Source: an archaeon (GTDB lineage Archaea; Thermoplasmatota; Thermoplasmata; JAJSAE01). From it: a stretch of DNA of 50,156 nt. A model generated the notes under the pieces. That model worked only from the letters and a program-made list of their open reading frames with translations. It was not told the DNA's origin and searched no databases. A program made the translations under genes and the position numbers. Positions 7,748 to 50,156 of the stretch are shown piece after piece (position 1 is the first letter of the stretch; each line of letters starts with the position of its first letter). Location of the stretch: the NCBI GenBank assembly GCA_024281315.1, contig JAJSAE010000069.1, positions 1-50,156 of the forward strand, written 5' to 3'.

Positions 7748-10700
7748 ATGAACGGGAAAAACGACGGATTAAAGAAAGGAGTGGCAGTTCTGCTGGTCCT
7801 TCTTATGGTTAGTAGCGGCTTTTTTGTCATAGTGACGGATAGCGCGGCGGCAAAGAGCAGTGACATGAGCGGCACCGCAAACCCCGCAGATATGGGGCCG
7901 GTGCAGGAGAAGACGGGGACAAATAGTGGAAGCGATAGCGCAACCAGCACAGGGAGCGATGTGAACTCGAATGCAGCAGGAAATGGTGCAGGACAGGCCA
8001 CTGTGCCCAATGATGCTGGCGGGCGCGGCCCGAGAGAGAAGAACACCGCACAAAAGGATGTGAAAACACAGGCCGCACACCCACAGGTTACAAAAACGGG
8101 CATGGATACAAATACAAAAAGATCGAACGAGAGGCGCACTTCGGAGAACAGGGAAACCGTGAATACTGCGGAGAATCCGGTTTATGCCGCATCCGTTTCC
8201 GGCAACCCTGCGCCGCCCATATCATCAAGCTGGAAGATTGGTACAATCTCTGATGTTACAGCCGGAAGCGGCGCACAGCCGGCGGCAGTCGGGCCCGTTG
8301 TGGTTGTGTATGATATGGATACGAATAAAACATACGCCAGCATTCAGGATGCCATAAACAACGCAACCTCCGGAGACCATCTGATAATTCGGGGCATGGC
8401 CTTAGAGAACATCTCCGTGGATGGAAAGACGATACAGATAGTCAACTCATCGTTTGACCTCATCGGAGACATTAGTGTAAGGAACGGCGGCTCTTTGCTT
8501 GTAGACCCGTCATGGGTCAACATGTCCGGGAACTGGTACATAGATGCGGGGGCGATAAATGTAACCGACAACACGATTGTCCAGTTCAACAACTCCTTTG
8601 ACGGTGAGTTTGGGATACAGGTGAACAGCACGGGCACCCTCATCATCCAGAACGGCAGCAAGATACAGTCCAACGGAACAGCCCAGTACTGGTTCCATGT
8701 CCTGCCGGGAGCCAGCCTTTTCATCAACGACAGCGTAGTAAAGAACTGCGGCTGGAACGACAGCGACCCGGGGCCGATGATACAGGCATCTGGCCTTTAT
8801 GTGCACAATGGCACATTCACCGAGAACGGAGCGGGCCTCATCCTTTTTGATGTGGACGGTGCCATCGTAGAGAACAGTACATTTTACAACAACTTTATGG
8901 GCGGAATCGGACTTATCGATGGAGCGGATGGGAATTACATAGCCAATAACAGCTTCGACGGGGCAGAGGGAATTCACATGGAAGGCAGCAGGAACAATGT
9001 CATATCCGGCAACCAGATGTCAAACACAACATATGGTATATATAATCAGATGTCCAACACAACATACGGCACATATAATTCATATTCTCCGTCCAACCTC
9101 CTCCAGAATCCGGGAGCGGAAACCGGCGACCTTTCCGGATGGACAATCGATGCGAACGGAGGAGCGGGGTGGAATGTCGTCGATGGCGGAGGCCGGGACA
9201 GCAGGTATTGCTTCGTGACCTCGTACGATTGGGATATAAAGCATCAGGAGATTGACCTGCTAGCCGCAGGATACACACCGGCGTTCCTTGACTCATCTCC
9301 GGATATAACGGCTTCAGAATGGTTCTACAGCAGAGTAGACCAGACCGGCATGTATGAGCTGAAAGTTGAGCTTCGCAATGCAACACATGCGGTCATCGCC
9401 AGCTGGGATACCGGTGTAAAAGACGCTCTTCCAAGGACTACATGGATACTGGAGAACCACACCTTTGCAGGATATCCCACCGGCGTCAGATATGTCTATT
9501 TTGAGGACCGTGGCAAGGATACAAGCTACTGGAGCAATTGGTATGGCGCACGGATGGATGACGCATCGCTAACTATCAAAGGATACGATAGAAATATCAT
9601 AGAAGGCAATACCATAAGCGGTCCCGGCTACGGCATATATCTCGATGGCGTATCATATAGCACCATCTCCAACAACAGCATCACATCATACAGCGGCATC
9701 TACATGAACAATTCGGATAACAACACGCTCTATAACAACGATATTACCTTCGGCAACAACAAATACGCCAACCTTGTAGCATACTGGAAGATGGATGAAA
9801 GCCAGTGGACAGGAGTCTGGGGCGAGGCAAGGGATTCATCCGGAAACGGACATAACGGATATGCACGGAATGGGGCCAACACCAATGCGTCCGGTTATTA
9901 CGGAAGGGCCGGAGACTTTGACGGGGTAAATGACTGGGTCTACATCTCGGATGGCGGCAATGCCCTAGACCTAACAGGGGACATGACCGTGGAGGCATGG
10001 ATAAATGCCCGGAGTTTCGGATGGTATGATGGAATCGTGAGCAAGTACCAGAGCTGGGGTGCAAATGGCTTCACCCTCCGACTTAGCCCTGTCGCACCAT
10101 ACAACACCATAGACTTCTGCGGCCGCACAGGAACCATTCCGCTGAATGCGAACGAGTGGTACCATGTGGTCGGGGTCATGCAGGGAGGCACGGCTAACAT
10201 ATATGTCAATGGAGTTCTAGACACTTCGGGAGCACCGGCGTATACCCGCGTCGCCAACTGGAATCCCGTATCGATTGGAGGAGATTATGTATATAGCGGA
10301 GGAAGATACTTTGACGGTCTCATCGACGATGTTCGAATATTCAATAGCGCCCTCAGTCCCGAGGAGATAAATCAGACATACAACAGCGAGTTCGCTTACG
10401 GTATTTACATGAAAGATTCGGCGGACAACAATATTTCTTTCAATCCTTCCATCAGCGATATTTCCGGATACGGGGATGCGGCAATCTATCTGGACAACTC
10501 CAGTCCAACCATATCATACGCAAACATGGACAACTCACTACAAGGTCTTGTTTGTGTTAACGGTGCGTCGCCCCTGATGGTCAGTTCCCAGATCTTGGGC
10601 AATGTGGTGGATGATGTTTATGTGAACGGGAATTCGCACCCCATCCTGTTGAATACGACATTCAATAAAGATCAGGGATATGTGATCGATTCTTCCAGCA

Positions 10701-13700
10701 ACCTGACGGTGGAATGGTATCTGGATGTCTATGTCCGGGATGCCGGCGGAGTGGCGCTTCCGGGAGCATGGGTCAATCTCACAGACAGACAGGGCAACTA
10801 CATCCCTGCCGGAACAACCGACGCTTCCGGGCATCTGGGTCCGCTTGTTCTTGTGGAATATGTCCAGAACTGGACAGAAAAGGATTACTACGCCCCATAC
10901 AATGTATACGCTGACGACGGGACTAACTACGGCTCGGAACCCGCACTGCTCGATACCTCCATGAGCGTTTACATCACCGTCGGCCTTCAGTATGTTCATA
11001 ATATCGAGCAGGACACATGGTATCCGGGGATACAGCCTGCCGTAATCATGGCCAACCCCGGAGAGCACCTGGAGGTCTATGGAGGAACGCACAACGAGAG
11101 CGCTCTCGTGGACAAAGAGGTGCACATAGCAGGCGTCGGTTCACCCCTGCCGGTCGTTAACGGGAACGGGGCCGGGCCGGCATTCTATATCGATGCGGAA
11201 GGCGTGGAGATAAGCGACCTGAACATTACGAACACCGGAGCGGCGGCCAATGAGTACGGAATCTATGCCGACACGGGCGGATTCGACATACATGACAACC
11301 TGTTTCACACCCAGAATTCCGGGGTCTATGTGGACATATATCACTACAACGAGGGCTCGATGAGTATCGGAGACATGAGCATATATAACAACAGGATGGA
11401 AGGAAACGGAATATATTTTAACCGCATCCAGTTCGACCACCCTCTGAGGGATTCCACAATCACCGTGGGGCAGATTGCCATAGACAACAACTGGATAAAC
11501 ACCACATTCGGCAGCGGTATCGAAATAGATATTGAATACACACAATACCTCTATGGCAGTACGTCTGTGGATATGGCAGGTATCGTAGCAACGGGAAACC
11601 ATATCAACAGTTCTTCGGAGTCGTTCTATCTCTATATGGACTCTGTCGGGTATTATATGTACGACACCTCCTCTTTCGCTTTCGGCGACATCGACATCAG
11701 CAACAACGATTTCATATCCGAGAATTCGGATGTCATCTATATCGATATCGGCGATAGCGGCTATTATATGTACAACTACAGCAGCTGGTCGCTAGGCACC
11801 GTGAACATCGCTGACAATACCATTGTTGCTAGAGGTCCATGGTCATCTGGCGTTGAGACCTATATTTATGACTGCGCTGAAGAAATGTACGGAAATTCCT
11901 TCGCCACCTTCGGCCCATGGAACATCCTCCGGAACGACATCACCGCCAGATATGGAGTATACACCGGACCGGAGTACTGCGGCTATGATATGTATGATAA
12001 TGCGGAACTGGTTTTCCATGACTGGAACATAATGTACAACAACATCGATGTCACCGGGACAGGGCTGGAATTTGACTATTATGACATTGGTGAGGAGATG
12101 TACGACAACAGCAGGGTAAGCGGCGGAAACAACAGGATAATGTACAACACGGTAACTGCGGAGGCCAACGAGGCCTACTATCTTTACTACGACTACATCG
12201 GATACGACATGTACGACAGCAGTTATGTTTCCGTCGGCTGGACGAACACCTCTTATAACACATTCCATTCGAACACAAGTTATGGAATGTATGTAGAGAT
12301 ATACAATCTCGGAGCATACATGGAAGGCAGCAGTCAGGCACACATCGGAGACTTCCTCTTTAACGACAATGATGTTCTGTCGAACACGAGTTATGGCATA
12401 TATTTCTATGGATGGTATGAGAACGGATATTATAACAGTGGAAACAGCTATGTTGAGTTCGGCGATGTGCTGGTGAACGACAACCGGATAACAACTAATG
12501 AGAGCACGGGGAGTTATGGAATATATCTTGAGGACTGGTACGACAACGGGGCATACCTGATGGACTTCGCAACCGTCGTATTGGGAAACTTCGAGGTCAA
12601 CAACAACACCATAAATTCCGGAAGCAATGGGATATATGTGGGCAGTTGGTATGGTTGGGGATACTATCTTTCCTATGATTTCAACTCGGGGACGCCGCAG
12701 CCTGCTTCCTGTCATGTCTCTGTAGGCCATATGCAGTTCAACGGCAACATAATAAACTCCTCGGGCGACGGGATTTATATCTACTACTTCGAAGAGATGG
12801 GCGAAGAGATGTACGGCTCCTCCACTTTCACCATGAAGAACTTTGAAGTGCGCGGGAACACCATGAATACACAGGGTTATGGAATCTATGCATATTATAT
12901 GGGGTACTTTGGATATGACCTGTATGATCAATCCGCAGTTACCATAGGTGATTTCCTCTTCAATGACAATATCATATACTCCGGGGATACGGGAATATAT
13001 ATCTCTTACTTTACTGACATAGCAGAGGAAATGTACGAATACTCCCAGTTCGGTATGGGCAACTTCGAGATGTGCCACAACACGGTCAATTCCTCGAGCT
13101 CTGACGGCCTCTATCCCGATGAGATAGAATACCTCGCTTACAATATGTACGACAACTCCCGTGCCACATTCGGCGACTTCCTGTTCAACTGGAATACGGT
13201 GACCAACGCTTCCGGCTATGCCTTCTACTCCGACTACATAGACTATCTAGCCTATGAAATGTATGACAACTCCATAGCGGTCTTCGGAAACTTTGAGTTC
13301 AACAACAACATAATGCACTCCACGGAGGCCGGAGTCTATGTCTATAACGAATACTGGGGCTACTCCATGTACGACTCCTCACAGGCATATTTTGGCCATA
13401 CACAGATGAACGACAATACTGTGAACACCACCGGAAATTCGCCTTGGGTCGTGGGTATAGAGATGGATTCGATGTATGAATTCGCCTATGAGATGTATGA
13501 TAACTCCTATTTCGAGATGGGTAATGTGGAGATATGCAGGAACACCGTGAAGACCAACACTTCCGGCAGCGGCAATGGCATAGAGGCGGACATATATAAC
13601 ATAGGATATAATATGTATGACAGCAGCCGTGCCGTCTTCCATGACTTCTTGTTCAACGACAATAATATAAGCGCTGGCGGCGAGGGCATATATTTCGAAG

Positions 13701-16700
13701 ATTTCTCTTATATCGCATACTACATGTACGACTATTCCAGTTTCAGCATGGGGGATGTGGACATGAACGACAACATCATAAGCGCCGGCGGCGATGGCAT
13801 ATATTTCGTGCCATACGAGGTAGGTGCATACATGTACTACGGTTCATCTGCCAGTATCGGAAGCAACCACATAATCAACAATAACATCACATCTGTGAAT
13901 GACTACGGGATATATTCGTGGTGGTGGTATGATTTCGGATACGAACTCTATGAGAATGCCCATCTGGAGGTCGGTAGCTCCATAATTACCAACAACACGG
14001 TATCGGCGGATGTGGATTCCGCTATCTGCACCGGCCCTTACGAGGCAGGATACGATGTTTATGACTCATCATCGGTGGTCTTCGGCAACTACATTGTTTC
14101 GAACAATACGGCCTTCTCGAACCAGAGCATGGGAATAGTGTTCTATAATTATGAAGTGGGACTTTATCTTTATGACGGCTCGTACTCCTACTCCAATAGC
14201 AGCGTGACAGTAGGGGATATCGAGATAGAGGGCAACGATGTAACGGCCCCGCAGGACACGGGTATATATTTCTATTCCGGGGATGTGGGGTATGATGTGG
14301 AATATGATTCCCGGGTAATAACAGGTGACACATCCATCAGGAACAATGCCGTAGATGCGTACGACGGGCTTTACCTTGAGGTGGACCGCATGGGATATGG
14401 AATCTACGATGATGCCGTGGCGAGCCTTGGAAGCCTTGATGCCGGAAATAACACGATAAACGCCAACACCTCCGGTGGATACGGTCTATACCTGAGGATG
14501 TATCGGGTGGCATACAACCTGTACAACGACGGCCGCTTCACGGCGGGCGATGTTTATCTGCACGACAACACCGTACTGGGATCTGGCACCGGAATGTATA
14601 TTGGGTACGCAGATTGCGGAGCAACTTACAATAATGCATACGGAGAGATTCCCGGCACCCATGCCTACAACAATGACATCACCGCATCTGACTGGGGGCT
14701 GCGCCTTGTCGGGTCCCGGAACCCGTACGCATACACGGGCGGAACACAGGTCTGGGGGCCGGTCAAGATATACGATTCGACCATCAATTCCGGCAACGGA
14801 ACATATATTTATTCGGATGCGGCCAGTACAAAGCCGGATGTCCGGATAAACGATGTCACATTCACCAAGACCGGAGCTTCAGGTCCCGGCAACGGAATCG
14901 CCGCATGGAACGGGGCCGCGACATTCGAAGGGTGCAGTTTCAGCGGATACTCACAGGGCATATATGCCAACGGCACGGACCTGACCGTTGGAAGCAGCAG
15001 TTTCAGCGGAGTGACCGGATGGGACATAAACATGACCGATGCGGCCCATGTGTTCATGGTGGACGACACCTTTAACAAGGCAAATGTTCTCTTCCAGGAT
15101 AATGCATCCATACTGGACATAGGCTGGTACATCACAATCAATGTGATAACACAGACAGGAAACGGAGTGCCTTATGCGGATGTCACCTATACATCCAATG
15201 TCTCCGCTCCTACCGTCTTTACAAAGAGTCTTGTAACCGATGGAAACGGGCAATACCTCGATATGCTGAGAGAATACAGACAGAATATAACGGGAATTAT
15301 AGAGCAGTATAACAATTACAACATGACAGGGACCAAGGCCGGCCTCACCGGATGGCTGGTTCCCGACCCGACGCCCATAGATGCGAGCAAGAATGTTTAC
15401 ATCGTTCTTACGGATACTGACCCGCCGATTCTTGGCGCAGATACATCCGATACCGCGGGAACGACGGGAGATCCGTTCACATTCCGCGTTGATGCCACGG
15501 ATACTATCGGGATGGACTATGTGACCGTTTATTACAGATACGGAAGCAGTGGCGCATATACCAGTGCAGTTATGAGCAGTAGCGACAATATCAGCTGGGT
15601 ACATACCATGAGTCTGCCCTCCAACTTCATCGGGAACATGGAGTACTACTTCATCGCAACGGACCTTGCGGGCAATACAGACACATCTGGAACAGTAGCG
15701 GTACCTATAACTGACAATGATGCGCCGTACGGGCTTGTCGATAACTCACCAGCGGTTGCATACGGCCCGACATATGAGTTCAACATGACCATAAGCGATA
15801 ATATCGATGTTACTTCCGTAACCGTAACATACTGGTTTGATTCCGAGAATCACACCACCACCCCGATGAACGGCGCAGGACCCTGGACTTACACAATAGA
15901 CCTGAACTGCTCGTGGAACAGCACCCTTCACTACTACTTCACCGCAAGCGATGCGGCAGGAAATGTCTTTACCGGCCCCACAACTGATGTACCGGTGAAT
16001 GATAACGAAGCGCCTGTGATTACCGCGGACAATTCCGATACTGCTGCGACAACCGGCGATGAGTTCCATTTCAGTGTGGACGCAACGGACAACTTCGAAA
16101 TCGGCTCCGTTACGGTAATATACTGGTTCGGAAACGGAACACATTCCAGCACGATATTGACCGGCTCGGGAACATACGCCGGAAGTATAGTTATTGATAG
16201 CGGCTCCATCGACACCCTACACTACTACTTCAATGTCACAGATGCAGCGGGAAACTATGTTATCAGTGATACCGTAGATGTTAATGTCGTGGATAACGAC
16301 CTGCCGGTAATCGCAGACATGACTGTGGGTAACCCTGTGAAGGGAAATAACTTCATAATCCTCGGAGAGGTGACCGACAATGTGGGCGTTTCCGGTGTTT
16401 ATCTGGAGTACTGGTTCGATGATGGAATACACGCCAATGAATCCATGCTGGGTGTCGGCGACATCTGGATATTCTCCGTAAGCATGCCGAAGGATGCGGT
16501 GCAACTGCATTATATCTTCCATGCGGGCGACGGAACGGGATGGAACTCAAGCTCTGAAACAATACTGGACACACAGGAGCCCATAGATAACGAGGCCCCC
16601 GTGGTGGTGGACTCCACGACAGCCGTACCGATAACAGACAGGGACTTCACATTCTCGGCTGCAGCTAGCGACAATGTAGGTGTTGCCGGAGTTTATGTCG

Positions 16701-17848
16701 AGTACTGGTTCGACAGCGGAGACCACAGCAATATATCAATGACAGAAGCGGATGCACACTGGGAATTCACCATGAGCGTTCCAGCAGATGTCACGGAACT
16801 GCACTATGTCTTCCACGCCGTCGATACATCCGACAACTGGGCCAGCACGGCAGAGGCAGCGCTCACCGTCGAGGCAACGGCCAGCGACAACGAACCGCCT
16901 GCAATAACGGACAGCACCACAGGAGTGCCCCTGAGCGGAATGGCATTTACATTCTCGGCCGATGTGACCGATAATATCGGTGTTGCCGGAGTTTATGTCG
17001 AGTACTGGTTCGACAGCGGAGACCACAGCAATATATCAATGGCAAACACAGGTAGCGAATGGGAGTACAGCATGATTGTGCCGGCGGAGGTAAGCAGGCT
17101 CCACTACATCCTTTCGGCCAGAGATACCTCCGGTAACTGGAACTCCCTTGCGGAGAAGGAACTCAATGTGCCAGCCCTGATAATCGATACCGAAGACCCG
17201 GTAATCGTATCCATACATACAAGCGAAAGTGCAACGGAAGGGGCGGACTTCTCCTTCACCGTAACTGCCACGGATAATGTTGGTGTGGGAACTGTCTATG
17301 TGGTCTACTGGACCGATGAAAATGAGCAGGCCATGGCTCTTCTGACCGGTGAAAACGGCACATACTCCGGCACCATCGCAGTACCTCAGGGCTCGCAACT
17401 GCACTTCTATCCCGTTGTAAAGGACCTTGTAGGCAACACGGCGCAGGGCAACCAGACCGACATGGACATCACGCCGGCCAGCGGCGGCGGAACCATCGCA
17501 CCGTCAAGCCTAGGGGGAACGAACCTGCTCCTGATAGCCATAATCGTTATCCTCCTTCTGATGGTCATCTACCTAGCGGCCACAAGGAACAAGGGCGGAA
17601 AGGGCGGCACTCCCAAAGCAGCAGTAGAGGAAGCACAGGAAGTTGAGGAACCTAAAGAGGAGGCCGTGGATGAAATGGAAGCGCCGGCACCTGAAAACAC
17701 AGAAGCATCTGAAATGACTGAAGAAAACTCGGAGCCAGAGCAGGCAGAAGCACAGGAAGAGGCAGGAGAAACATCAGGTGAGAGCGCGGAGACCGAAGGA
17801 GTGCCGGAAGAGGAAAAGGGCGAGGTTCTGGACCTCGCTGACTTCTGA
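7748..17848 (+). CDS. Giant (3366 aa) secreted, membrane-anchored parallel beta-helix surface protein with FBA-like and LamG inserts, Tyr-rich repeat array, Ig-like repeats, C-terminal TM and acidic tail
   Basis: N-terminal signal peptide (KKGVAVLLVLLMVSSGFFVIV), NosD/PbH1-type NNxxxxxxxGIY repeats, LamG motif, seven DNEAPVI-type repeats, TM NLLLIAIIVILLLMVIYLAA followed by E-rich tail; GGAGTGAG SD. Confidence 0.95.
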   Translation: MNGKNDGLKKGVAVLLVLLMVSSGFFVIVTDSAAAKSSDMSGTANPADMGPVQEKTGTNSGSDSATSTGSDVNSNAAGNGAGQATVPNDAGGRGPREKNTAQKDVKTQAAHPQVTKTGMDTNTKRSNERRTSENRETVNTAENPVYAASVSGNPAPPISSSWKIGTISDVTAGSGAQPAAVGPVVVVYDMDTNKTYASIQDAINNATSGDHLIIRGMALENISVDGKTIQIVNSSFDLIGDISVRNGGSLLVDPSWVNMSGNWYIDAGAINVTDNTIVQFNNSFDGEFGIQVNSTGTLIIQNGSKIQSNGTAQYWFHVLPGASLFINDSVVKNCGWNDSDPGPMIQASGLYVHNGTFTENGAGLILFDVDGAIVENSTFYNNFMGGIGLIDGADGNYIANNSFDGAEGIHMEGSRNNVISGNQMSNTTYGIYNQMSNTTYGTYNSYSPSNLLQNPGAETGDLSGWTIDANGGAGWNVVDGGGRDSRYCFVTSYDWDIKHQEIDLLAAGYTPAFLDSSPDITASEWFYSRVDQTGMYELKVELRNATHAVIASWDTGVKDALPRTTWILENHTFAGYPTGVRYVYFEDRGKDTSYWSNWYGARMDDASLTIKGYDRNIIEGNTISGPGYGIYLDGVSYSTISNNSITSYSGIYMNNSDNNTLYNNDITFGNNKYANLVAYWKMDESQWTGVWGEARDSSGNGHNGYARNGANTNASGYYGRAGDFDGVNDWVYISDGGNALDLTGDMTVEAWINARSFGWYDGIVSKYQSWGANGFTLRLSPVAPYNTIDFCGRTGTIPLNANEWYHVVGVMQGGTANIYVNGVLDTSGAPAYTRVANWNPVSIGGDYVYSGGRYFDGLIDDVRIFNSALSPEEINQTYNSEFAYGIYMKDSADNNISFNPSISDISGYGDAAIYLDNSSPTISYANMDNSLQGLVCVNGASPLMVSSQILGNVVDDVYVNGNSHPILLNTTFNKDQGYVIDSSSNLTVEWYLDVYVRDAGGVALPGAWVNLTDRQGNYIPAGTTDASGHLGPLVLVEYVQNWTEKDYYAPYNVYADDGTNYGSEPALLDTSMSVYITVGLQYVHNIEQDTWYPGIQPAVIMANPGEHLEVYGGTHNESALVDKEVHIAGVGSPLPVVNGNGAGPAFYIDAEGVEISDLNITNTGAAANEYGIYADTGGFDIHDNLFHTQNSGVYVDIYHYNEGSMSIGDMSIYNNRMEGNGIYFNRIQFDHPLRDSTITVGQIAIDNNWINTTFGSGIEIDIEYTQYLYGSTSVDMAGIVATGNHINSSSESFYLYMDSVGYYMYDTSSFAFGDIDISNNDFISENSDVIYIDIGDSGYYMYNYSSWSLGTVNIADNTIVARGPWSSGVETYIYDCAEEMYGNSFATFGPWNILRNDITARYGVYTGPEYCGYDMYDNAELVFHDWNIMYNNIDVTGTGLEFDYYDIGEEMYDNSRVSGGNNRIMYNTVTAEANEAYYLYYDYIGYDMYDSSYVSVGWTNTSYNTFHSNTSYGMYVEIYNLGAYMEGSSQAHIGDFLFNDNDVLSNTSYGIYFYGWYENGYYNSGNSYVEFGDVLVNDNRITTNESTGSYGIYLEDWYDNGAYLMDFATVVLGNFEVNNNTINSGSNGIYVGSWYGWGYYLSYDFNSGTPQPASCHVSVGHMQFNGNIINSSGDGIYIYYFEEMGEEMYGSSTFTMKNFEVRGNTMNTQGYGIYAYYMGYFGYDLYDQSAVTIGDFLFNDNIIYSGDTGIYISYFTDIAEEMYEYSQFGMGNFEMCHNTVNSSSSDGLYPDEIEYLAYNMYDNSRATFGDFLFNWNTVTNASGYAFYSDYIDYLAYEMYDNSIAVFGNFEFNNNIMHSTEAGVYVYNEYWGYSMYDSSQAYFGHTQMNDNTVNTTGNSPWVVGIEMDSMYEFAYEMYDNSYFEMGNVEICRNTVKTNTSGSGNGIEADIYNIGYNMYDSSRAVFHDFLFNDNNISAGGEGIYFEDFSYIAYYMYDYSSFSMGDVDMNDNIISAGGDGIYFVPYEVGAYMYYGSSASIGSNHIINNNITSVNDYGIYSWWWYDFGYELYENAHLEVGSSIITNNTVSADVDSAICTGPYEAGYDVYDSSSVVFGNYIVSNNTAFSNQSMGIVFYNYEVGLYLYDGSYSYSNSSVTVGDIEIEGNDVTAPQDTGIYFYSGDVGYDVEYDSRVITGDTSIRNNAVDAYDGLYLEVDRMGYGIYDDAVASLGSLDAGNNTINANTSGGYGLYLRMYRVAYNLYNDGRFTAGDVYLHDNTVLGSGTGMYIGYADCGATYNNAYGEIPGTHAYNNDITASDWGLRLVGSRNPYAYTGGTQVWGPVKIYDSTINSGNGTYIYSDAASTKPDVRINDVTFTKTGASGPGNGIAAWNGAATFEGCSFSGYSQGIYANGTDLTVGSSSFSGVTGWDINMTDAAHVFMVDDTFNKANVLFQDNASILDIGWYITINVITQTGNGVPYADVTYTSNVSAPTVFTKSLVTDGNGQYLDMLREYRQNITGIIEQYNNYNMTGTKAGLTGWLVPDPTPIDASKNVYIVLTDTDPPILGADTSDTAGTTGDPFTFRVDATDTIGMDYVTVYYRYGSSGAYTSAVMSSSDNISWVHTMSLPSNFIGNMEYYFIATDLAGNTDTSGTVAVPITDNDAPYGLVDNSPAVAYGPTYEFNMTISDNIDVTSVTVTYWFDSENHTTTPMNGAGPWTYTIDLNCSWNSTLHYYFTASDAAGNVFTGPTTDVPVNDNEAPVITADNSDTAATTGDEFHFSVDATDNFEIGSVTVIYWFGNGTHSSTILTGSGTYAGSIVIDSGSIDTLHYYFNVTDAAGNYVISDTVDVNVVDNDLPVIADMTVGNPVKGNNFIILGEVTDNVGVSGVYLEYWFDDGIHANESMLGVGDIWIFSVSMPKDAVQLHYIFHAGDGTGWNSSSETILDTQEPIDNEAPVVVDSTTAVPITDRDFTFSAAASDNVGVAGVYVEYWFDSGDHSNISMTEADAHWEFTMSVPADVTELHYVFHAVDTSDNWASTAEAALTVEATASDNEPPAITDSTTGVPLSGMAFTFSADVTDNIGVAGVYVEYWFDSGDHSNISMANTGSEWEYSMIVPAEVSRLHYILSARDTSGNWNSLAEKELNVPALIIDTEDPVIVSIHTSESATEGADFSFTVTATDNVGVGTVYVVYWTDENEQAMALLTGENGTYSGTIAVPQGSQLHFYPVVKDLVGNTAQGNQTDMDITPASGGGTIAPSSLGGTNLLLIAIIVILLLMVIYLAATRNKGGKGGTPKAAVEEAQEVEEPKEEAVDEMEAPAPENTEASEMTEENSEPEQAEAQEEAGETSGESAETEGVPEEEKGEVLDLADF
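9011..9076 (+). repeat. 33-bp tandem duplication (NQMSNTTYGIY / NQMSNTTYGTY)
   Basis: 9011-9043 and 9044-9076 nearly identical with few substitutions. Confidence 0.9.
9095..9577 (+). other. F-box-associated (FBA)-like domain within the giant surface protein
   Basis: NLLQNPGAETGDLSGW...CFVTSYDWDIKHQEIDLLAAGYTPAFLD...EWFYSRVDQTGMYELKVEL...HTFAGYPTGVRYVYFEDRGKDTSYWSNWYGARMDDASL matches remembered FBA consensus end to end. Confidence 0.8.
9767..10390 (+). other. LamG/concanavalin A-like domain within the giant surface protein
   Basis: LVAYWKMDE...DSSGNGHNG...GRAGDFDGVNDWVYI...MTVEAWINA...WYHVVGVMQGGTANIYVNGVLD...FDGLIDDVRIFNSALSPEEI. Confidence 0.9.
11340..14800 (+). repeat. About 31 tandem, diverged ~37-aa (~111 bp) Tyr/Asp/Asn-rich protein repeats
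   Basis: Recurrent GYxMYDNSxxxFGDFxFNDNxIxSxxxGIYxxY unit; MYD-to-MYD spacing counted at 35-39 aa for several adjacent units. Confidence 0.9.
15400..17480 (+). repeat. Seven tandem ~90-100 aa Ig-like/cadherin-like repeats in the giant protein
   Basis: Each begins DN(E/D)xPxI and carries (A/V)TDNxGVxxVYVxYW; seven units visible. Confidence 0.85.
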
Positions 17849-40342: not shown

Positions 40343-41533
40343 ATGGAGGAGTTTGATGTTGTTGTTGTAGGTGCGGGGCCTGCCGGGAGCATAACCGCCA
40401 AGTATGCGGCCATGGGCGGGGCAACCGTATTAATGCTGGAGAAGCGACAGGAAGTGGGCTCTCCGGTAAGATGCGGAGAGGGTATTGCGCGGAAATGGAT
40501 AGATGAGGTGGGCATTAGACTGGATAAAAGATGGATCGCTCACGAGGTAAAAGGCGCAAAGCTTGTTTCCCCCGACGGCACGGAGTTTCGCATAGACGAA
40601 GAGCACGCGGGCAGCGAGGTTGGGACCATAATTGAGAGAGACATCTTCGATAAGGCCCTTGCGGAGGATGCGGTTAAAGCTGGAGCCGAATTACGCCTCA
40701 AAAGCGCCGTGCGCAGCCTGACTTTCGAAGAATCCGGGAAAGTGAATGGAGTAAAGGTGGAGTCGTTGGAAGGGACCTATGAGGTAAAAGCAGGAGCAGT
40801 GGTAGGTGTCGATGGTTTCGAGTCACAGATTGGGCGCTGGGGAGGCATCAACACCAGCATCAAGCCCAATGATATAACCTCGGCGATTCAGTACAGGATG
40901 GTGGATATCGAACCGGACCCGGACTATGCCGAATTCTTCCTCGGAACCACATGGGCCCCAGGCGGATATGTCTGGATATTTCCCAAGAGCGAGACATCCG
41001 CAAATGTGGGTGTGGGGATCCTTCTCTCCAATGTGAATGAGCCGGGGGATGCCAGAAAATATCTTAATAAATTCATAGAAAACAGACCATATCTCAAGAA
41101 GGGAAAGGTGATAGAGATTGTGTCCGGAGGGGTTCCTGTTTCCGCACCTCTCGATGAAACCGTGAAAGACGGGCTTCTTCTTGTGGGAGATGCTGCGAGG
41201 CAGACCAATCCTCTGACTCGCGGCGGTATCGCCAACGGCTGTATTGCCGGAAAGATTGCCGGCGAGACCCTCTCGGAGGCTGTGAAAGAAGGTGATTTCT
41301 CCAGTTCGTTCCTGATGAGGTATGAAAACGGATGGAGGGAACGGCTTGAGGAGGAACTCTACCGGGATTGGATGGCCAAGGAGAAGCTGATAGGCCTGAA
41401 CGACGATACTCTGAACAAGATGATAAGCGTGCTCTCCGAATCTGACATAGACGAACTGTCAGTCTACAGGATACTGGAGGAAATAAGGAAGAGGTACCCG
41501 GAACTCGTCAGGGAAATAGAGGATCTTCTTTGA
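40343..41533 (+). CDS. Geranylgeranyl reductase family (digeranylgeranylglycerophospholipid reductase-like)
   Basis: VVVVGAGPAGSITAKYAAMGGATVLMLEKRQEVGSPVRCGEG, LLLVGDAARQTNPLTRGGIANGCIAG. Confidence 0.9.
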   Translation: MEEFDVVVVGAGPAGSITAKYAAMGGATVLMLEKRQEVGSPVRCGEGIARKWIDEVGIRLDKRWIAHEVKGAKLVSPDGTEFRIDEEHAGSEVGTIIERDIFDKALAEDAVKAGAELRLKSAVRSLTFEESGKVNGVKVESLEGTYEVKAGAVVGVDGFESQIGRWGGINTSIKPNDITSAIQYRMVDIEPDPDYAEFFLGTTWAPGGYVWIFPKSETSANVGVGILLSNVNEPGDARKYLNKFIENRPYLKKGKVIEIVSGGVPVSAPLDETVKDGLLLVGDAARQTNPLTRGGIANGCIAGKIAGETLSEAVKEGDFSSSFLMRYENGWRERLEEELYRDWMAKEKLIGLNDDTLNKMISVLSESDIDELSVYRILEEIRKRYPELVREIEDLL

Positions 41534-41592
41534 GAGGCAATAGAAACATTTATCAAATAGGAAATAATACGGCATGGAGAAAGGGGAATTTC

Positions 41593-43206
41593 ATGGAAGA
41601 CGCCGAAGAGAAACTCAGCAGCATGACGGTAGCCGAATTAAAAGAACTGGCCAGAGAGAAGGGGATATCTCTTAAGGGAATTAAGAAAAAAAGGGAGATA
41701 ACGGCCGCAATATTGGAATCCACCAGTTCCAGCGAACTGTTCAATCAACAGTCTGCAGCGGAAAGGATGACAGAGGACCTTGATGATGTGGAAGAGAGCA
41801 TCAACGAAATAATGGCCGACACTCAGGAAGCAATCGCTATCGTGGAGAGCGACCGGCTGGTGGACGAGGAGAAAATCTCCGAAAAACTCGAGGATGCGCG
41901 CAACAGTATGCTTGATTTCAATACCCTCCTTCAATACCTCGAAACCCTTCCCAAGACATTTGACAAGAAGGATTATGCCCTTGCTCTTTATCAGGTGATG
42001 GCGGCGGAGCGCATTTCGGAGCGGGTATTCTCAGGCTGGTATTCGTGGACGGTAGCATGGATTATAAGTGCGTCGGAGAAAATGATTGAAGAACTGGAGA
42101 GTACGGGTTACGATATGAAGGAACAGAGACATCTTATGAAGATTGCCAAAAGGGCCTTCGGAGATGGTTTGCAGGAGTCAATGAGAGAGAGTGCTTTGGC
42201 CCTTCAGAAGTCGGTCAGTGCGGCCTTTGAAGGTAGAATGTCGGATGTGGACGAGCGTTTGACTATGTTGGAAGGCGAAATTGCAAAGATAAGCGAAATC
42301 GGTGCAAATATCTCTGATGCGAGCCAGCTTCTCGTATCTGCCAGAAACATGCTTCTTAAATACGACCATCTGGGGGCCGAAAAAAGAATTTTTGAGGCGG
42401 AGAGCAGCATAGAGATGGCAAAAACAGAGCGCATACAGCAGATAAACGACTACTTTCCCCGGGTGGAATCTTTGATAGAGGATGGGAGAAGCCTCGGTGC
42501 GGATATGTCTGAAGCCGAGCATCTTCTGAAACTGGCACGGGAATCATTCTCAAGAGAGGATTATCTGATGACCAGCGAACTACTCGGCAAGGCCGAGGCC
42601 GGTGCGCTTGAGGGGCAGGAGGAGCAGATAAAGAAGGCAATGAACCTTCGCAGGACCCAGATTGCCAAGGCCACGGAGATAATAAACTACAACGAACCGT
42701 TTGTCAGGGAAGCAGTGGCATACGGGCTGGATATAGGACAATCCTCGGAATCTATCCGACAGGCAAAGACGGCACTTTCGAGAGATGATTATGTGGAGGG
42801 ACTGAGGCTGGCCAACGAGCTGAAAAGATTTGTAGCAGGACTGAAACCCGAAATAATGGAGATTAGAGCTAGAAGGGGCATAACGGTCCCTGAAAAAGGC
42901 ATTTGCAGCAAATGCGGCTCGGACAAGCTCGCTTTTTCCGACAATGGAACCGGCGTTTGCGAGGCCTGTGGATATGGTTTTATATGGCTTCGCCTTCAAC
43001 CGATCGCTCGTGCTCCGGCACCACCGCAGTCAGCACCTTCTTCGAGCACAGTTCCTGCAGGAAATACGGCCATGAATACCTGCCCACAGTGCGGCACCAC
43101 ACTGAATTTTGTGGAAGGCGTCGGTATGGTTTGCCCTAACTGCGGCTTCACCCGAGCGGTAACCGTAAAAAAGAAAGCGGCAAAGAAGAGAAGCATTTTC
43201 CACTGA
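41593..43206 (+). CDS. SAP-like N-terminus, long helical region and C-terminal zinc ribbons; unknown function
   Basis: MTVAELKELAREKGISLKGIKKKREITAAIL (SAP-like); CSKCG..CEACG and CPQCG..CPNCG; start at ATG 41593 preferred over 41530. Confidence 0.7.
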   Translation: MEDAEEKLSSMTVAELKELAREKGISLKGIKKKREITAAILESTSSSELFNQQSAAERMTEDLDDVEESINEIMADTQEAIAIVESDRLVDEEKISEKLEDARNSMLDFNTLLQYLETLPKTFDKKDYALALYQVMAAERISERVFSGWYSWTVAWIISASEKMIEELESTGYDMKEQRHLMKIAKRAFGDGLQESMRESALALQKSVSAAFEGRMSDVDERLTMLEGEIAKISEIGANISDASQLLVSARNMLLKYDHLGAEKRIFEAESSIEMAKTERIQQINDYFPRVESLIEDGRSLGADMSEAEHLLKLARESFSREDYLMTSELLGKAEAGALEGQEEQIKKAMNLRRTQIAKATEIINYNEPFVREAVAYGLDIGQSSESIRQAKTALSRDDYVEGLRLANELKRFVAGLKPEIMEIRARRGITVPEKGICSKCGSDKLAFSDNGTGVCEACGYGFIWLRLQPIARAPAPPQSAPSSSTVPAGNTAMNTCPQCGTTLNFVEGVGMVCPNCGFTRAVTVKKKAAKKRSIFH

Positions 43207-45493: not shown

Positions 45494-46279
45494 TTATAAC
45501 TGGCTACCCGGTCTGGGTGCGCCGCACTTGGGACATGTGTGCATGTATGGCGGTATCTGTGTCCCGCAATTGGGACAGATAACGGTTCCGTCCATTCCTA
45601 TTGCCTGTGGTGCCGTACGCTGTTGCTGGGCAGACACTGGCTGTGGCGGCGCCTGATACTGTTGCTGGGGCTGTTGATATGCGGAGGGCGGGTTATACTG
45701 CGGCTGAGGGGTAGGTTGCGGCTGTCCGTATGGTGGTTGTTGTGCCGGCTGCTGATAGCCCTGCTGTGGTGCTGTCTGCTGCGGCTGTTGATAGCCGGGC
45801 TGTTGTTGTCCGTAGTTGTATTGTGCCGGAGGGGCCTGACCAGGGGCAGCGTATTGCGGGGCAGTTGTAGCTTCGTCCATCTTGGTCTTCGATATGAAGA
45901 GCAGAATGCCGGGGATGAGCCCGAACACTATGCCCAGAATCATCCACAGTGTGATGTCGCTCTTTGCCTGTGCAACCCTGTTCTGGTCTATTGCGTTTAT
46001 TATCTTTCGCTGGATGTTAAGAGCTATAAAGACCAGTATAAAGGCCCCTGCAAGGTCATATATAACTCCAAACCATGTCCAAACCCCAACACCCCATGCA
46101 GCCCATGTCAGGGCCCACAGAAGATTCCCGAGTCCGACAAGTAGCATAAGAATTGCAAAAATGGCAGATATCAGTTTCGCATAGTATGCCATCTCCCTTG
46201 CTTCTTTCAACGGTCCCGAAAGCCATGGAGGGGCAGTCCCTCCGCCTGTGAGTTCTTCGATTATGTCGGTCATGTTCAA
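45494..46279 (-). CDS. Membrane protein with Pro/Gln-rich linker and C-terminal zinc ribbon
   Basis: Hydrophobic segments followed by QQPGYQQPQQTAPQQGYQQPAQQPPYGQPQP and CPNCGTQIPPYMHTCPKCG. Confidence 0.8.
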   Translation of the reverse strand: MNMTDIIEELTGGGTAPPWLSGPLKEAREMAYYAKLISAIFAILMLLVGLGNLLWALTWAAWGVGVWTWFGVIYDLAGAFILVFIALNIQRKIINAIDQNRVAQAKSDITLWMILGIVFGLIPGILLFISKTKMDEATTAPQYAAPGQAPPAQYNYGQQQPGYQQPQQTAPQQGYQQPAQQPPYGQPQPTPQPQYNPPSAYQQPQQQYQAPPQPVSAQQQRTAPQAIGMDGTVICPNCGTQIPPYMHTCPKCGAPRPGSQL

Positions 46280-46404
46280 TCCTCCGATTGTTGTATTCTG
46301 TAAGGGTATAGGTTCTTTCCTATTTATCCTTATCGTAAATCGCTCTGAAGCACCGGGGATGGTTTAAAGAATTATTTCACAAAACATGAAGTAATGGCCA
46401 AGAC

Positions 46405-46414
46405 TTTATATAAG
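46405..46414 (+). promoter_or_regulatory. Possible TATA box of wHTH-KaiC-like operon
   Basis: tttatataag about 65 nt upstream of ATG 46477. Confidence 0.45.
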
Positions 46415-46476
46415 AGGATGTTCATTCCATATTCTGCGGCATTGGTTTACGCTAAATCAAGTAATCAGGGATTGAC

Positions 46477-47037
46477 ATGAGCAGAGAGAGAGAAATGTGT
46501 GCCCTTCTGGGGAATCAGACGGTTGCGGACATTCTTCGCTTTATTGCGAGAAAAGATGCGGTGACGGCCAGCGAGGTAGCCCACAGCCTGCAAATACATG
46601 TGGCCACTGCGGTAAAGTATCTCTCCGCCCTCTACGACTTGAATGTTTTGAATAGAGAAATACGGAAGACGGGACGGCGTCCCGCCTATGCCTACCATTT
46701 AGAGTCGGATATTATAAGAATAGAGTTCAGATTTTCCGACGCTAGCGGGGAGAGCGGATGGCCCTCTCTTTATTCTCTGTTTGAAACGGTGAGACAGTTG
46801 TACGGTTCGAAACTGCCGGAAGAAACTCCTCTTCTGGAATGCCTCGATTTAGGCAGAGAAAAGGGCTTTCTGAGGTTTGGAGAAGACGGTTGCGGAGATG
46901 ACGAACTGGAACGGGCCGAATCCTATCTAGTGGATTTCGCCCGGAGAAATTTCGGAACACGAACAGCGGAGTTAATCGTTAGAAAGGTGAGAAAAAATCA
47001 TACGAAAAGAGAAAAAGGTGAAATATATGAGAGTTAA
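46477..47037 (+). CDS. wHTH (ArsR-like) transcriptional regulator
   Basis: LLGNQTVADILRFIARKDAVTASEVAHSLQIHVATAVKYLSALYDLNVLNREIRKTGRRPAYAYHL. Confidence 0.8.
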   Translation: MSREREMCALLGNQTVADILRFIARKDAVTASEVAHSLQIHVATAVKYLSALYDLNVLNREIRKTGRRPAYAYHLESDIIRIEFRFSDASGESGWPSLYSLFETVRQLYGSKLPEETPLLECLDLGREKGFLRFGEDGCGDDELERAESYLVDFARRNFGTRTAELIVRKVRKNHTKREKGEIYES

Positions 47038-47701
47038 AACAGGAATTCCGGGGCTTGACGGAATGATAGAAGGGGGCTTCACCCCTCACTCGGTAAATCT
47101 GATAAGTGGCCCTCCCGGCAGCGGTAAAAGCCTTTTCGGCATCCATTATGTCTCACAGGGGGCGGATGCCGGAGAAACAGGGATGTACATCACTCTGGAG
47201 GAGGAAGCATCGAGTATATCCTCTGCAGCCTCAAGATACAGTATGAATGTGGAGAGAAAGGGGATATCTCTTGTGGACTTCGGAGATATCAGGCAGGAAG
47301 AAACAGTCAGCTTCGGGGCGCTCAGGGAGTACCTTGAAGGACGCCTCGAGAACATGCCTATCAAGCGTCTTGTAATAGATTCCATCTCCTCGATAAGCGT
47401 CCAATACGAGGATGCGAATGCCCTTCGGAGGGATCTGTTCGCCTTCTGCCGTTTTCTCAGGAAGAGCGGCCTGACTTCCCTTCTTGTGGCTGAGAGTGAC
47501 GGGGGCATCGGAAAGGACCTAAGGGTGGAGAATTTCGTGACCGATTCTCTGGTATTTTTGGGCTATGAAAATCACAAGGGAGAGTACAGGAGAACGGTTC
47601 TGGTCCAGAAGATGAGATTGACGAAGCACGACCCCTATAAACATCCATTCCTGATAACCTCACGCGGAGTGGAGATATATCCGGAGGAGACACTGTTCTG
47701 A
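47027..47701 (+). CDS. KaiC-like RecA-fold ATPase (single domain)
   Basis: GIPGLDGMIEGGFTPHSVNLISGPPGSGKSLFGIHYV Walker A; RLVIDSISSISV Walker B-like; ATG 47027 with GGTGA SD, overlaps upstream gene by 11 nt. Confidence 0.88.
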   Translation: MRVKTGIPGLDGMIEGGFTPHSVNLISGPPGSGKSLFGIHYVSQGADAGETGMYITLEEEASSISSAASRYSMNVERKGISLVDFGDIRQEETVSFGALREYLEGRLENMPIKRLVIDSISSISVQYEDANALRRDLFAFCRFLRKSGLTSLLVAESDGGIGKDLRVENFVTDSLVFLGYENHKGEYRRTVLVQKMRLTKHDPYKHPFLITSRGVEIYPEETLF

Positions 47702-47712
47702 GAGGCAAAAGA

Positions 47713-50156
47713 ATGAAAAAGACGGAGAAAGAGGAAGAAAATGACTCACCGGAGGAGGTGCGTAGCATCCTCCTTACCGGCAGACACAAAGAGCGCAGGC
47801 ATTCCGTTCTGTTCGCCCAGATTTCTCATACCATTGAGAAGGGAGAGACCGCCATTATTGTACTCGGCGATATGACGCCCGCGTATTTCGAAGAGGGAAT
47901 GAAGGACCACGGCATATCTCCCTCAAAAGCATTGAAAGGCGAAACACTCATAATTATAGATTGGCACTCTTTCGATAGCAGAATGGTCATAGGGGTGGAG
48001 GAAGAGGACGGACTTCTTCTGTGTGCTCGCGACCTTCTTAATGTAAGCATTGCCATAAACAAGGCCCTGAAGAGGAAAAAAGGCAGGTGCATGCTGTTCA
48101 GTGATATGATACCGCGGGCCGAGCGCATATACGGGATAACGGAGACCGCAGCGTTCCTGCAGATCACTCTGTCAAAAATGAGGAATCGCAGGATTTCATC
48201 GCTGTTTCTGGCAAATAATGAGAGACACGCAGAGATTTTCGACACGGTCATTTCCTCCGATACCGGTTCAGATAGCGAAGCAAAGGAGAATTTGGACGAG
48301 GGACCGGCCCCTGTTGACATATGTCCGTCCTGCGGTGCATTTGTTCCCGGCGGCTCGGACGAATGTCCGACTTGTCATGCAGGAGTGGCACGGAAACCGG
48401 AAGAAGTTGAAGAGGGGGCGGAGGACGAAAAAGTTGTTATGTATCTGTGTCCCGTATGCGGCGCTTTCATATCTCCAGACGCAGACCGCTGCCCGTCCTG
48501 CGGGGCCGTCTTTGAAGAAGGAGAAGAGGAAGATAGCACTGCTCCAGTCCCAGGAGAAAGGGCGTACTTGGACAAAGAGGTTGAGGCGATAAATATCTGC
48601 CCGTCCTGCGGAACCTTCGTTCAGGCCGATACCAACATCTGCCCAGTTTGCGGCAGCGAATTTGCTTCGGGTAAGGAGGATATTCCGGTGGCAGACCCTC
48701 TTGAGACCGTTAAAGGACTTAAAATATGCCCGAATTGCGGCGCTTTTGTTGCTGCGGGGCGCAAACACTGCCCCCTCTGTGCAACGGAAATCCCCGATGA
48801 TGCGGATACAAGAATCTCCGGGAAGGATCTCTTGGAAACCAGCGGGAATCTCAAGGTTTGCGGGGGATGTGGTGCTTTTCTCGGCAAGAATATGGCCGCC
48901 TGCCCTGTGTGCGGGACTCCATACGCGGAAGAAGCCGGGGAAAGGCCTATCATAAACAAACTGGAAGAGAATCCGTACCTGCCAGATGTATGTCCGAATT
49001 GCGGCGGCTTTATTCCATATCCCGGAGCCAGATGCAGTGCCTGCGGTTACAAGGAAGGAGAGATAATATGTTCGAACTGCGGGGCGCTGCTGGGCGAAGA
49101 GGACAGTATATGTCCGGTATGCGGCCACCTCTTTTCTGAGAGAGAACAGGGGCTGAAACCGGAAGAACCAGAGACTTTAACCCATATGAAAGATATGCCC
49201 GTTTTTGCAGAGGAGGGGGCAGAGCAAAAGGAGCTCCCGCCAAAGAAAACGGAGGATAGAGGAGAGGATCAGGACGAAGGGGCGCTGCTGGAAATTGACA
49301 TGTCTGCCGAGGACTTCCTTGAACTCGCTCGGGAAGGGAGCTTTGATCATGAGGAAGCAGAGGGATTGGACGAATTTAACGAACAGGATATTCAGCGCTG
49401 GGCCGAAGCCGAACTTCTGTCGAAGGCGCCCCCCTCTATAGCGGCAAAAGATAGCATCATCGACAGCACTGAAGAAAAACCCCTCTCCGATGATGATATC
49501 GCCGCCCTTCTGGAACTGGAGGAGATGTCGGCCAGTGATTTTAATGAGGAGGATTTCACAGATGATCTGGTAGGAGACATTGATGAAGCGGGTATAGAGG
49601 AAATTGACATTGAATCCATAGAGAGGGCCGGAAGAAATAAAGAAGAATTTCTAGATGACGGAGAGATCCTCGGCCTCTCCGAAAGCGAGGCGGAAAGTGA
49701 AGAGGTCATGGATGAAGAGTTCGAATGTCCCGTGTGCGGGACGCTTCTCGATGCCGATGTCATGGTCTGCCCGGCCTGCGGTGTGCAGTTTGTAGAGGAA
49801 GAAGTCCCAGAAGATAGGGAAGGCTCCGCTCTCCACAGAGGACTTACGAATGGCAGAGGGCTTGTGAATGGTAATGGCCTCACCAATGGAAACGGGTTGA
49901 TAAACGGTAACGGGCTAGCGGGTGTTCTTCGCAAAAAAGGCCTGGTGAATGGAAACGGATTGATAAACGGTAACGGCCTTACGAATGGAAACGGGCGAGC
50001 GTCTCGCGGGCTGATAAATGGTAACGGCATAGTAAACGGCAACGGTCTCCTTGACTCCCGTGGCAATCTTCTGCGTCCTCCGTCTTACGGTGGCGGTTTC
50101 TGGGCCAGCAACCGTTCTGTTATTGCCGCTGGCCTAATCCTCGTCCTTCTGATTCC
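47713..50156 (+). CDS. Partial ORF (runs off window): P-loop-less KaiC/RecA-like domain, eight zinc ribbons, acidic region, GLxNGN repeats, TM start; not in ORF track
   Basis: Manual translation from ATG 47713 shows no stop to the window end; eight CxxC...CxxC modules; hydrophobic SVIAAGLILVLLI at the end. Confidence 0.88.
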   Translation, partial: MKKTEKEEENDSPEEVRSILLTGRHKERRHSVLFAQISHTIEKGETAIIVLGDMTPAYFEEGMKDHGISPSKALKGETLIIIDWHSFDSRMVIGVEEEDGLLLCARDLLNVSIAINKALKRKKGRCMLFSDMIPRAERIYGITETAAFLQITLSKMRNRRISSLFLANNERHAEIFDTVISSDTGSDSEAKENLDEGPAPVDICPSCGAFVPGGSDECPTCHAGVARKPEEVEEGAEDEKVVMYLCPVCGAFISPDADRCPSCGAVFEEGEEEDSTAPVPGERAYLDKEVEAINICPSCGTFVQADTNICPVCGSEFASGKEDIPVADPLETVKGLKICPNCGAFVAAGRKHCPLCATEIPDDADTRISGKDLLETSGNLKVCGGCGAFLGKNMAACPVCGTPYAEEAGERPIINKLEENPYLPDVCPNCGGFIPYPGARCSACGYKEGEIICSNCGALLGEEDSICPVCGHLFSEREQGLKPEEPETLTHMKDMPVFAEEGAEQKELPPKKTEDRGEDQDEGALLEIDMSAEDFLELAREGSFDHEEAEGLDEFNEQDIQRWAEAELLSKAPPSIAAKDSIIDSTEEKPLSDDDIAALLELEEMSASDFNEEDFTDDLVGDIDEAGIEEIDIESIERAGRNKEEFLDDGEILGLSESEAESEEVMDEEFECPVCGTLLDADVMVCPACGVQFVEEEVPEDREGSALHRGLTNGRGLVNGNGLTNGNGLINGNGLAGVLRKKGLVNGNGLINGNGLTNGNGRASRGLINGNGIVNGNGLLDSRGNLLRPPSYGGGFWASNRSVIAAGLILVLLI
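49840..50046 (+). repeat. GL(V/T/I)NGN hexapeptide repeat array
   Basis: GLTNGRGLVNGNGLTNGNGLINGNGLAGVLRKKGLVNGNGLINGNGLTNGNGRASRGLINGNGIVNGNG. Confidence 0.95.

Follow-up and report, generated by a model that had tools for sequence, protein, structure and literature searches.

A putative cell-surface receptor with an inactivated KaiC domain encoded next to an active KaiC-like ATPase in Thermoplasmatota

The locus at the end of the contig

The analysed window is the whole of contig C54, 50156 bp in length, from an assembly of 1.75 Mb in 107 contigs (91% complete). Its 3' end carries a winged-helix gene, a gene for a KaiC-like ATPase and the reading frame 47713-50154 (+), which is free of stop codons over 814 codons up to the window end, as the first-pass annotation had claimed in reporting an open frame of more than 810 amino acids. 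The last gene is incomplete because the contig itself ends at position 50156, an assembly break and not a choice of window. Homologues occur in dozens of genomes, so the frame is evidently a real gene and not a chance occurrence. The following features were placed (evidence in brackets):

46386-46415 (+): imperfect 24-nt palindrome (46386-46409) running into a TATA-like CTTTATATAAG, a possible operator/promoter (repeat search, sequence)
46477-47037 (+): winged helix-turn-helix (wHTH) regulator, 186 aa (ORF; weak HTH_20 match below cut-off; homologues at other loci)
47027-47701 (+): KaiC-like ATPase with P-loop, catalytic EE, Walker B DS and trans KxR finger intact (PF06745, motifs, KaiC matches in PDB)
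47713-48312 (+): predicted pseudo-KaiC (iKaiC) head of the putative receptor, P-loop and catalytic Glu lost (AlphaFold, Foldseek, hhalign, motif table)
48322-49122 (+): seven zinc ribbons with acidic linkers between them (DZR / Zn_ribbon_3, mapped positions)
49174-49710 (+): acidic low-complexity arm (composition by position)
49726-49779 (+): eighth zinc ribbon (Zn_ribbon_3, mapped position)
49840-50043 (+): GLxNG(N) block of nine motifs, cytoplasmic and juxtamembrane (mapped positions; same place before the transmembrane helix in relatives)
50107-50156 (+): start of a transmembrane (TM) helix; gene cut at the contig end, ectodomain missing (sequence, match to the paralogue on contig C1)

The ATPase matches Pfam PF06745 with an E-value of 7e-51 (173 bits against a cut-off of 26.6) and has the P-loop GPPGSGKS; its P-loop, EE, Walker B DS and KxR finger are invariant or near-invariant in 14 aligned partner ATPases. 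The description of an intact Walker A-bearing ATPase directly upstream of the long frame, overlapping a wHTH gene by 11 nt, holds with the start codon ATG at 47027 (MRVKTGI, matching relatives) and the wHTH stop at 47037. The palindrome and TATA-like sequence would fit autoregulation of the operon, although a single instance of this kind is possibly due to chance. Two further zinc-ribbon genes lie close to the operon: the product of 41530-43206 (+) has a SAP-like N-terminus, that of 45494-46279 (-) predicted TM helices and a linker rich in P and Q. The window also contains an ORF of 3366 aa (7748-17845, +) with a hydrophobic helix at both termini, probably a giant surface protein.

The product of the 47713 gene begins with the head (aa 1-195), followed by seven ribbons (204-470), the acidic arm (488-666, with 61 D/E against 13 K/R), ribbon eight (672-689), nine GLxNG motifs (710-777) and a hydrophobic helix that begins at about aa 800, just short of the contig end. 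The ribbons are of the form CxxC-x10-CxxC and start at aa 204, 246, 296, 339, 383, 427, 453 and 672. Their number and the succession of GLxNGN array and hydrophobic helix are those given at first reading; the placement of all eight ribbons ahead of the acidic region is not, as seven precede it and the eighth follows.

The last ~104 nt of the window differ by a single mismatch from a paralogue on contig C1 of the same genome, and each of the two genes is truncated 3' by the end of its contig. A near-identical repeat common to C54 and C1 is a simple reason for the contig break, and this similarity suggests that the missing part of the window gene may resemble the C1 ectodomain. C1 was rejected as the missing end itself, being a paralogue and likewise cut. 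Contigs C79, C73 and C37 were also considered as carriers of the missing ectodomain, and their matches proved to be separate genes. The gene on C73 (L009:4905-6929) encodes 675 aa, with 14 GLTNGN-type repeats first, then a TM helix, a CBM9-like ectodomain and a C-terminal CTERM-like helix, and has no head. That on C37 (L175:4053-7565) encodes a paralogue of 1171 aa with ribbon, HhH, TPR, GLxNG and TM parts, and C79 (L191:1-11025) holds a giant paralogous ORF, at least 3675 aa long, which has ribbons, a TM helix and an ectodomain of repeats but lacks a GLxNG block.

A KaiC-type fold in the head domain

A Pfam search with the window head alone matched no family, KaiC, MEDS, DUF835 and DUF7504 included, and family profiles and structure were therefore needed. 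The AlphaFold model of the first ~195 residues, built from the window sequence and its relatives, reaches a pLDDT of 87.9 and a pTM of 0.85. All 50 matches listed by Foldseek for this model are KaiC-family chains, and the best PDB matches are PH0284, KaiC CI and Sso2452 (E about 4e-5 to 3e-4, TM-scores 0.46-0.62). In hhalign, the 35-member head profile aligns to the upstream ATPase with a probability of 99 and an E-value of 7e-18; the profile finds KaiC in PDB at E 8e-26, and among the aligned members themselves 24 of 35 have a Pfam KaiC match. The N-terminus had been read from its sequence as a KaiC/RecA domain with a replaced Walker A loop. The high-confidence model and the KaiC-family structure matches support the first part of that reading, and the degeneracy of the loop extends to the whole family of 35.

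Both the P-loop and the catalytic EE are absent from 35 of 35 aligned heads. The window copy has GRHKERRH at the site of the P-loop and GDMT in place of the catalytic Glu; in the family the P-loop site reads GPxGxEKx or worse, against G-x-x-GS[AG]K[ST] in the partner ATPases. The trans KxR finger, kept in the partners, is gone from the heads wherever the alignment covers it. D83 and N110 are invariant in the heads, and W84 is nearly so. Because the P-loop and catalytic Glu pair are lost throughout, the head is, on alignment and model, best described as a pseudo-KaiC, a catalytically dead domain of KaiC/RecA fold. Of the attributes of an active KaiC it retains the fold, with Walker A and the catalytic glutamates in 0 of 35 members; a KaiC fold devoid of Walker A within a multidomain protein of signalling type is what characterises iKaiC domains, and the head shows this combination.

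In archaea, both KaiC and its inactivated domain versions are recognised components of signalling systems, and DUF835 and MEDS have been named as iKaiC domains (PMC5847659). DUF835, MEDS and DUF7504 are inactivated KaiC-like domains that serve as sensor or output modules, and members of the head family match DUF7504 (18 of 35) and MEDS (18 of 35), mostly weakly. The head differs from them in that the window copy matches none, and in its position: it forms the cytoplasmic end of a protein with ribbons, GLxNG block, TM helix and ectodomain, and it is paired with an adjacent active KaiC. The cyanobacterial KaiC (CI ring) shares the fold of the head and the full set of catalytic motifs of the partner, but here the partner is single-domain and the head is dead, and no KaiA or KaiB was noticed in passing at the loci. 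A circadian clock reading was set aside, as KaiC homology is its sole support.

Gene linkage and protein architecture in relatives

An alignment of the ATPase was scanned against 85,462 species, one genome each; with the ATPase as query, the test of its neighbours is unbiased towards the pseudo-KaiC gene. The scan returned 59 loci, from records that bear names such as Thermoplasmata, Thermoplasmatota, Methanomassiliicoccales or Euryarchaeota, and the best matches beyond Thermoplasmatota-type records have ~34% identity or below. With the window counted, the ATPase gene is followed by a same-strand pseudo-KaiC gene at 51 of 60 loci, at distances of -26 to 43 nt with one exception of 956, and the expectation that the ATPase and the ribbon protein would be neighbours in relatives is thus upheld. 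The nine other loci comprise five contig-end cuts, three remote KaiCs (33-36% identity) and one true absence (L109); three of the cuts fall right after the ATPase, and two (L110 and L125) fall inside an ORF that by eye resembles the soluble-type N-terminus described below. The evolutionary distances of the ATPase and pseudo-KaiC genes correlate with r 0.59, a value inflated by common descent, against a permutation maximum of 0.24. A wHTH homologue detected by HMM overlaps or abuts the ATPase gene in 26 of 60 loci. At a few further loci a different short gene next to the ATPase reads by eye like a wHTH, and some operons of the TM class (e.g. L123, L132) have none beside the ATPase.

A search with the window head as query finds matches in 61 of 400 genomes of the class. 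The head family profile matches 35 of 393 genomes of the phylum at E 1e-20, other classes included, and many of the best-assembled genomes of the phylum have no match at this threshold. The named matching genomes are nearly all metagenome-assembled, so that to date it is mostly in uncultured lineages that the system has been seen.

The window copy of the head shares 18-28% identity with 34 relatives. Divergence this strong, together with the missing Pfam match of the window copy, might mark the head as a functionless leftover whose gene adjoins the ATPase only via past duplication. A leftover would decay, but adjacency is nearly universal, and neither the fold nor the D-W...N signature has been lost between families or even between classes of the phylum; we consider this explanation very improbable.

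The downstream genes are of two kinds. In the TM class the order from the N-terminus is head, ribbons or TPRs, GLxNG block, a single TM helix, ectodomain. In 22 of 22 cases listed, the last GLxNG motif starts 16-47 aa ahead of the first TM helix. Ectodomains of complete TM-class genes are 797-1859 aa long, and at the C-terminus the proteins often carry a PEF-like motif, followed by a second helix and by basic residues. The PEF-CTERM model gave one match exactly at the cut-off (23.0) and otherwise weak ones among the relatives; the window gene is cut before its C-terminus. Two exosortase/archaeosortase-like proteins, which fit CTERM-like tails, are encoded in the same genome as the window (C45:58957-59796 and C60:8744-9313). 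By the layout of its relatives and of the C1 paralogue, the window protein would be the cytoplasmic portion of a giant surface protein with parts on both sides of the membrane, its own ectodomain missing.

For one ectodomain, a model of the first ~560 aa predicts beta-sandwich domains (pLDDT 82). The best Foldseek matches of this model, beta-sandwich chains, include adhesion proteins, at TM-scores of only 0.07-0.26, and therefore no ligand can be named. FG-GAP, DUF11 and LTD domains lie further out in the ectodomains, and repeats of calcium-binding type are also present. Such composition, with the CTERM-like tails, would suit a machine serving a surface adhesin or filament, whose assembly, clustering or movement would be powered or switched by the KaiC ATPase, docked via the pseudo-KaiC head, the wHTH protein merely regulating the operon. 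ArlH (FlaH) of the archaellum is a KaiC-like motor protein (PMC13286277, PMC12448462) and offers the precedent of a KaiC-like protein working at the membrane; the window ATPase, however, scores 22 bits on the ArlH model, whose cut-off is 215, and wHTH regulators are linked to both modules found here (see below for the second). No pilin, platform protein, motor ATPase or archaellum gene was noticed in passing at the loci. We hold such an assembly role to be unlikely, at about one chance in four.

The soluble class comprises proteins of ~480-880 aa with one or two pseudo-KaiC domains and no TM helix. Tandem pseudo-KaiC proteins of ~860 aa follow the same ATPase at L113:10752-13355, and similar ones at L115, L119, L120, L131, L133, L140 and L156. 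Many loci thus pair the ATPase with a soluble double pseudo-KaiC, and a membrane receptor is therefore not obligatory. These soluble versions, the MEDS and DUF7504 matches and the retention of D83, N110 and W84 as a pocket-like signature despite lost catalysis are in keeping with a direct, MEDS-like intracellular ligand sensor, which the membrane part would only localise, and with an ATPase acting on the head or the wHTH protein without a joint ring. That the MEDS matches are weak (5e-7 at best) and that the giant conserved ectodomain would go unexplained makes this alternative improbable in our judgement.

A second module was found on contig C1 of the same genome (L008:503-5614), where genes for KaiC2, a wHTH protein and an HhH/zinc-ribbon/TPR/GLxNG/TM/ectodomain protein stand in a row, the last cut at the contig end. 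This module is conserved in many genomes of the class, and the KaiC2-wHTH order recurs in 29 of 30 loci examined. By hand count, a ribbon ORF comes next in 19 of the 25 KaiC2 loci whose wHTH gene is not cut by a contig end, and in a single-contig genome of 5.2 Mb (L086) the two modules adjoin. Three genomes (L223-L225) carry the KaiC2-wHTH pair with no adjoining receptor, the next gene at L223 being ribose 5-phosphate isomerase A; the receptor may therefore be a later add-on to an older pair. The sister module follows the same logic as the window operon and strengthens its reading as a receptor system.

A possible route from the cell surface to transcription

The reading we favour, and to which we give slightly better than even chances, is that of a receptor spanning the membrane: its pseudo-subunit would control a KaiC ATPase, which in turn would feed a transcription regulator; the direction of signal flow is inferred. 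The operon would then constitute a three-part transmembrane signalling module. The large protein would serve as cell-surface receptor, with its ectodomain outside and one helix through the membrane, and the GLxNG block and zinc-ribbon arm would connect the membrane to the dead KaiC domain inside. This pseudo-subunit may dock on, or join, a RecA/KaiC-type ring of the active ATPase encoded upstream and, through such contact, set its ATPase activity or its state of phosphorylation in response to the ligand of the ectodomain. The ATPase would relay this state to the winged-helix regulator, whose presumed regulon is its own operon and probably surface genes.

KaiC-like ATPases have been described as archaeal signal transduction hubs (Makarova, Galperin and Koonin 2017, as cited in PMC5847659). 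As far as that citation portrays them, the hubs resemble the present system in linking an active single-domain KaiC ATPase to HTH regulators and sensor proteins, and differ in that the sensor here would be a giant single-pass surface protein bearing its own dead KaiC. Transmembrane histidine kinases share the input-to-DNA logic, with an ectodomain, one TM pass, a cytoplasmic head and a regulator; unlike in two-component systems, the domain search found no histidine kinase or receiver domain in any part of the module. A partial literature search returned no description of a ribbon/GLxNG/TM/ectodomain receptor paired with an active KaiC, and no relevant match for the GLxNG motif. While iKaiC domains and KaiC hubs are already known, their pairing with such a receptor looks undescribed.

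Signalling in archaea is believed to centre on KaiC ATPases, and how outside signals reach them is an open question. The operons, conserved over many Thermoplasmatota lineages though absent from many of the best-assembled genomes of the phylum, give a concrete, testable link from the cell surface through a KaiC ATPase to a DNA-binding regulator. They would represent, as a more tentative proposal that we rate clearly below even, an archaeal class of receptors, present in uncultured Thermoplasmatota, that put a pseudo-subunit into or onto a KaiC ring driving a wHTH regulator, a one-pass stand-in for two-component systems that in some genomes may exist as two parallel modules.
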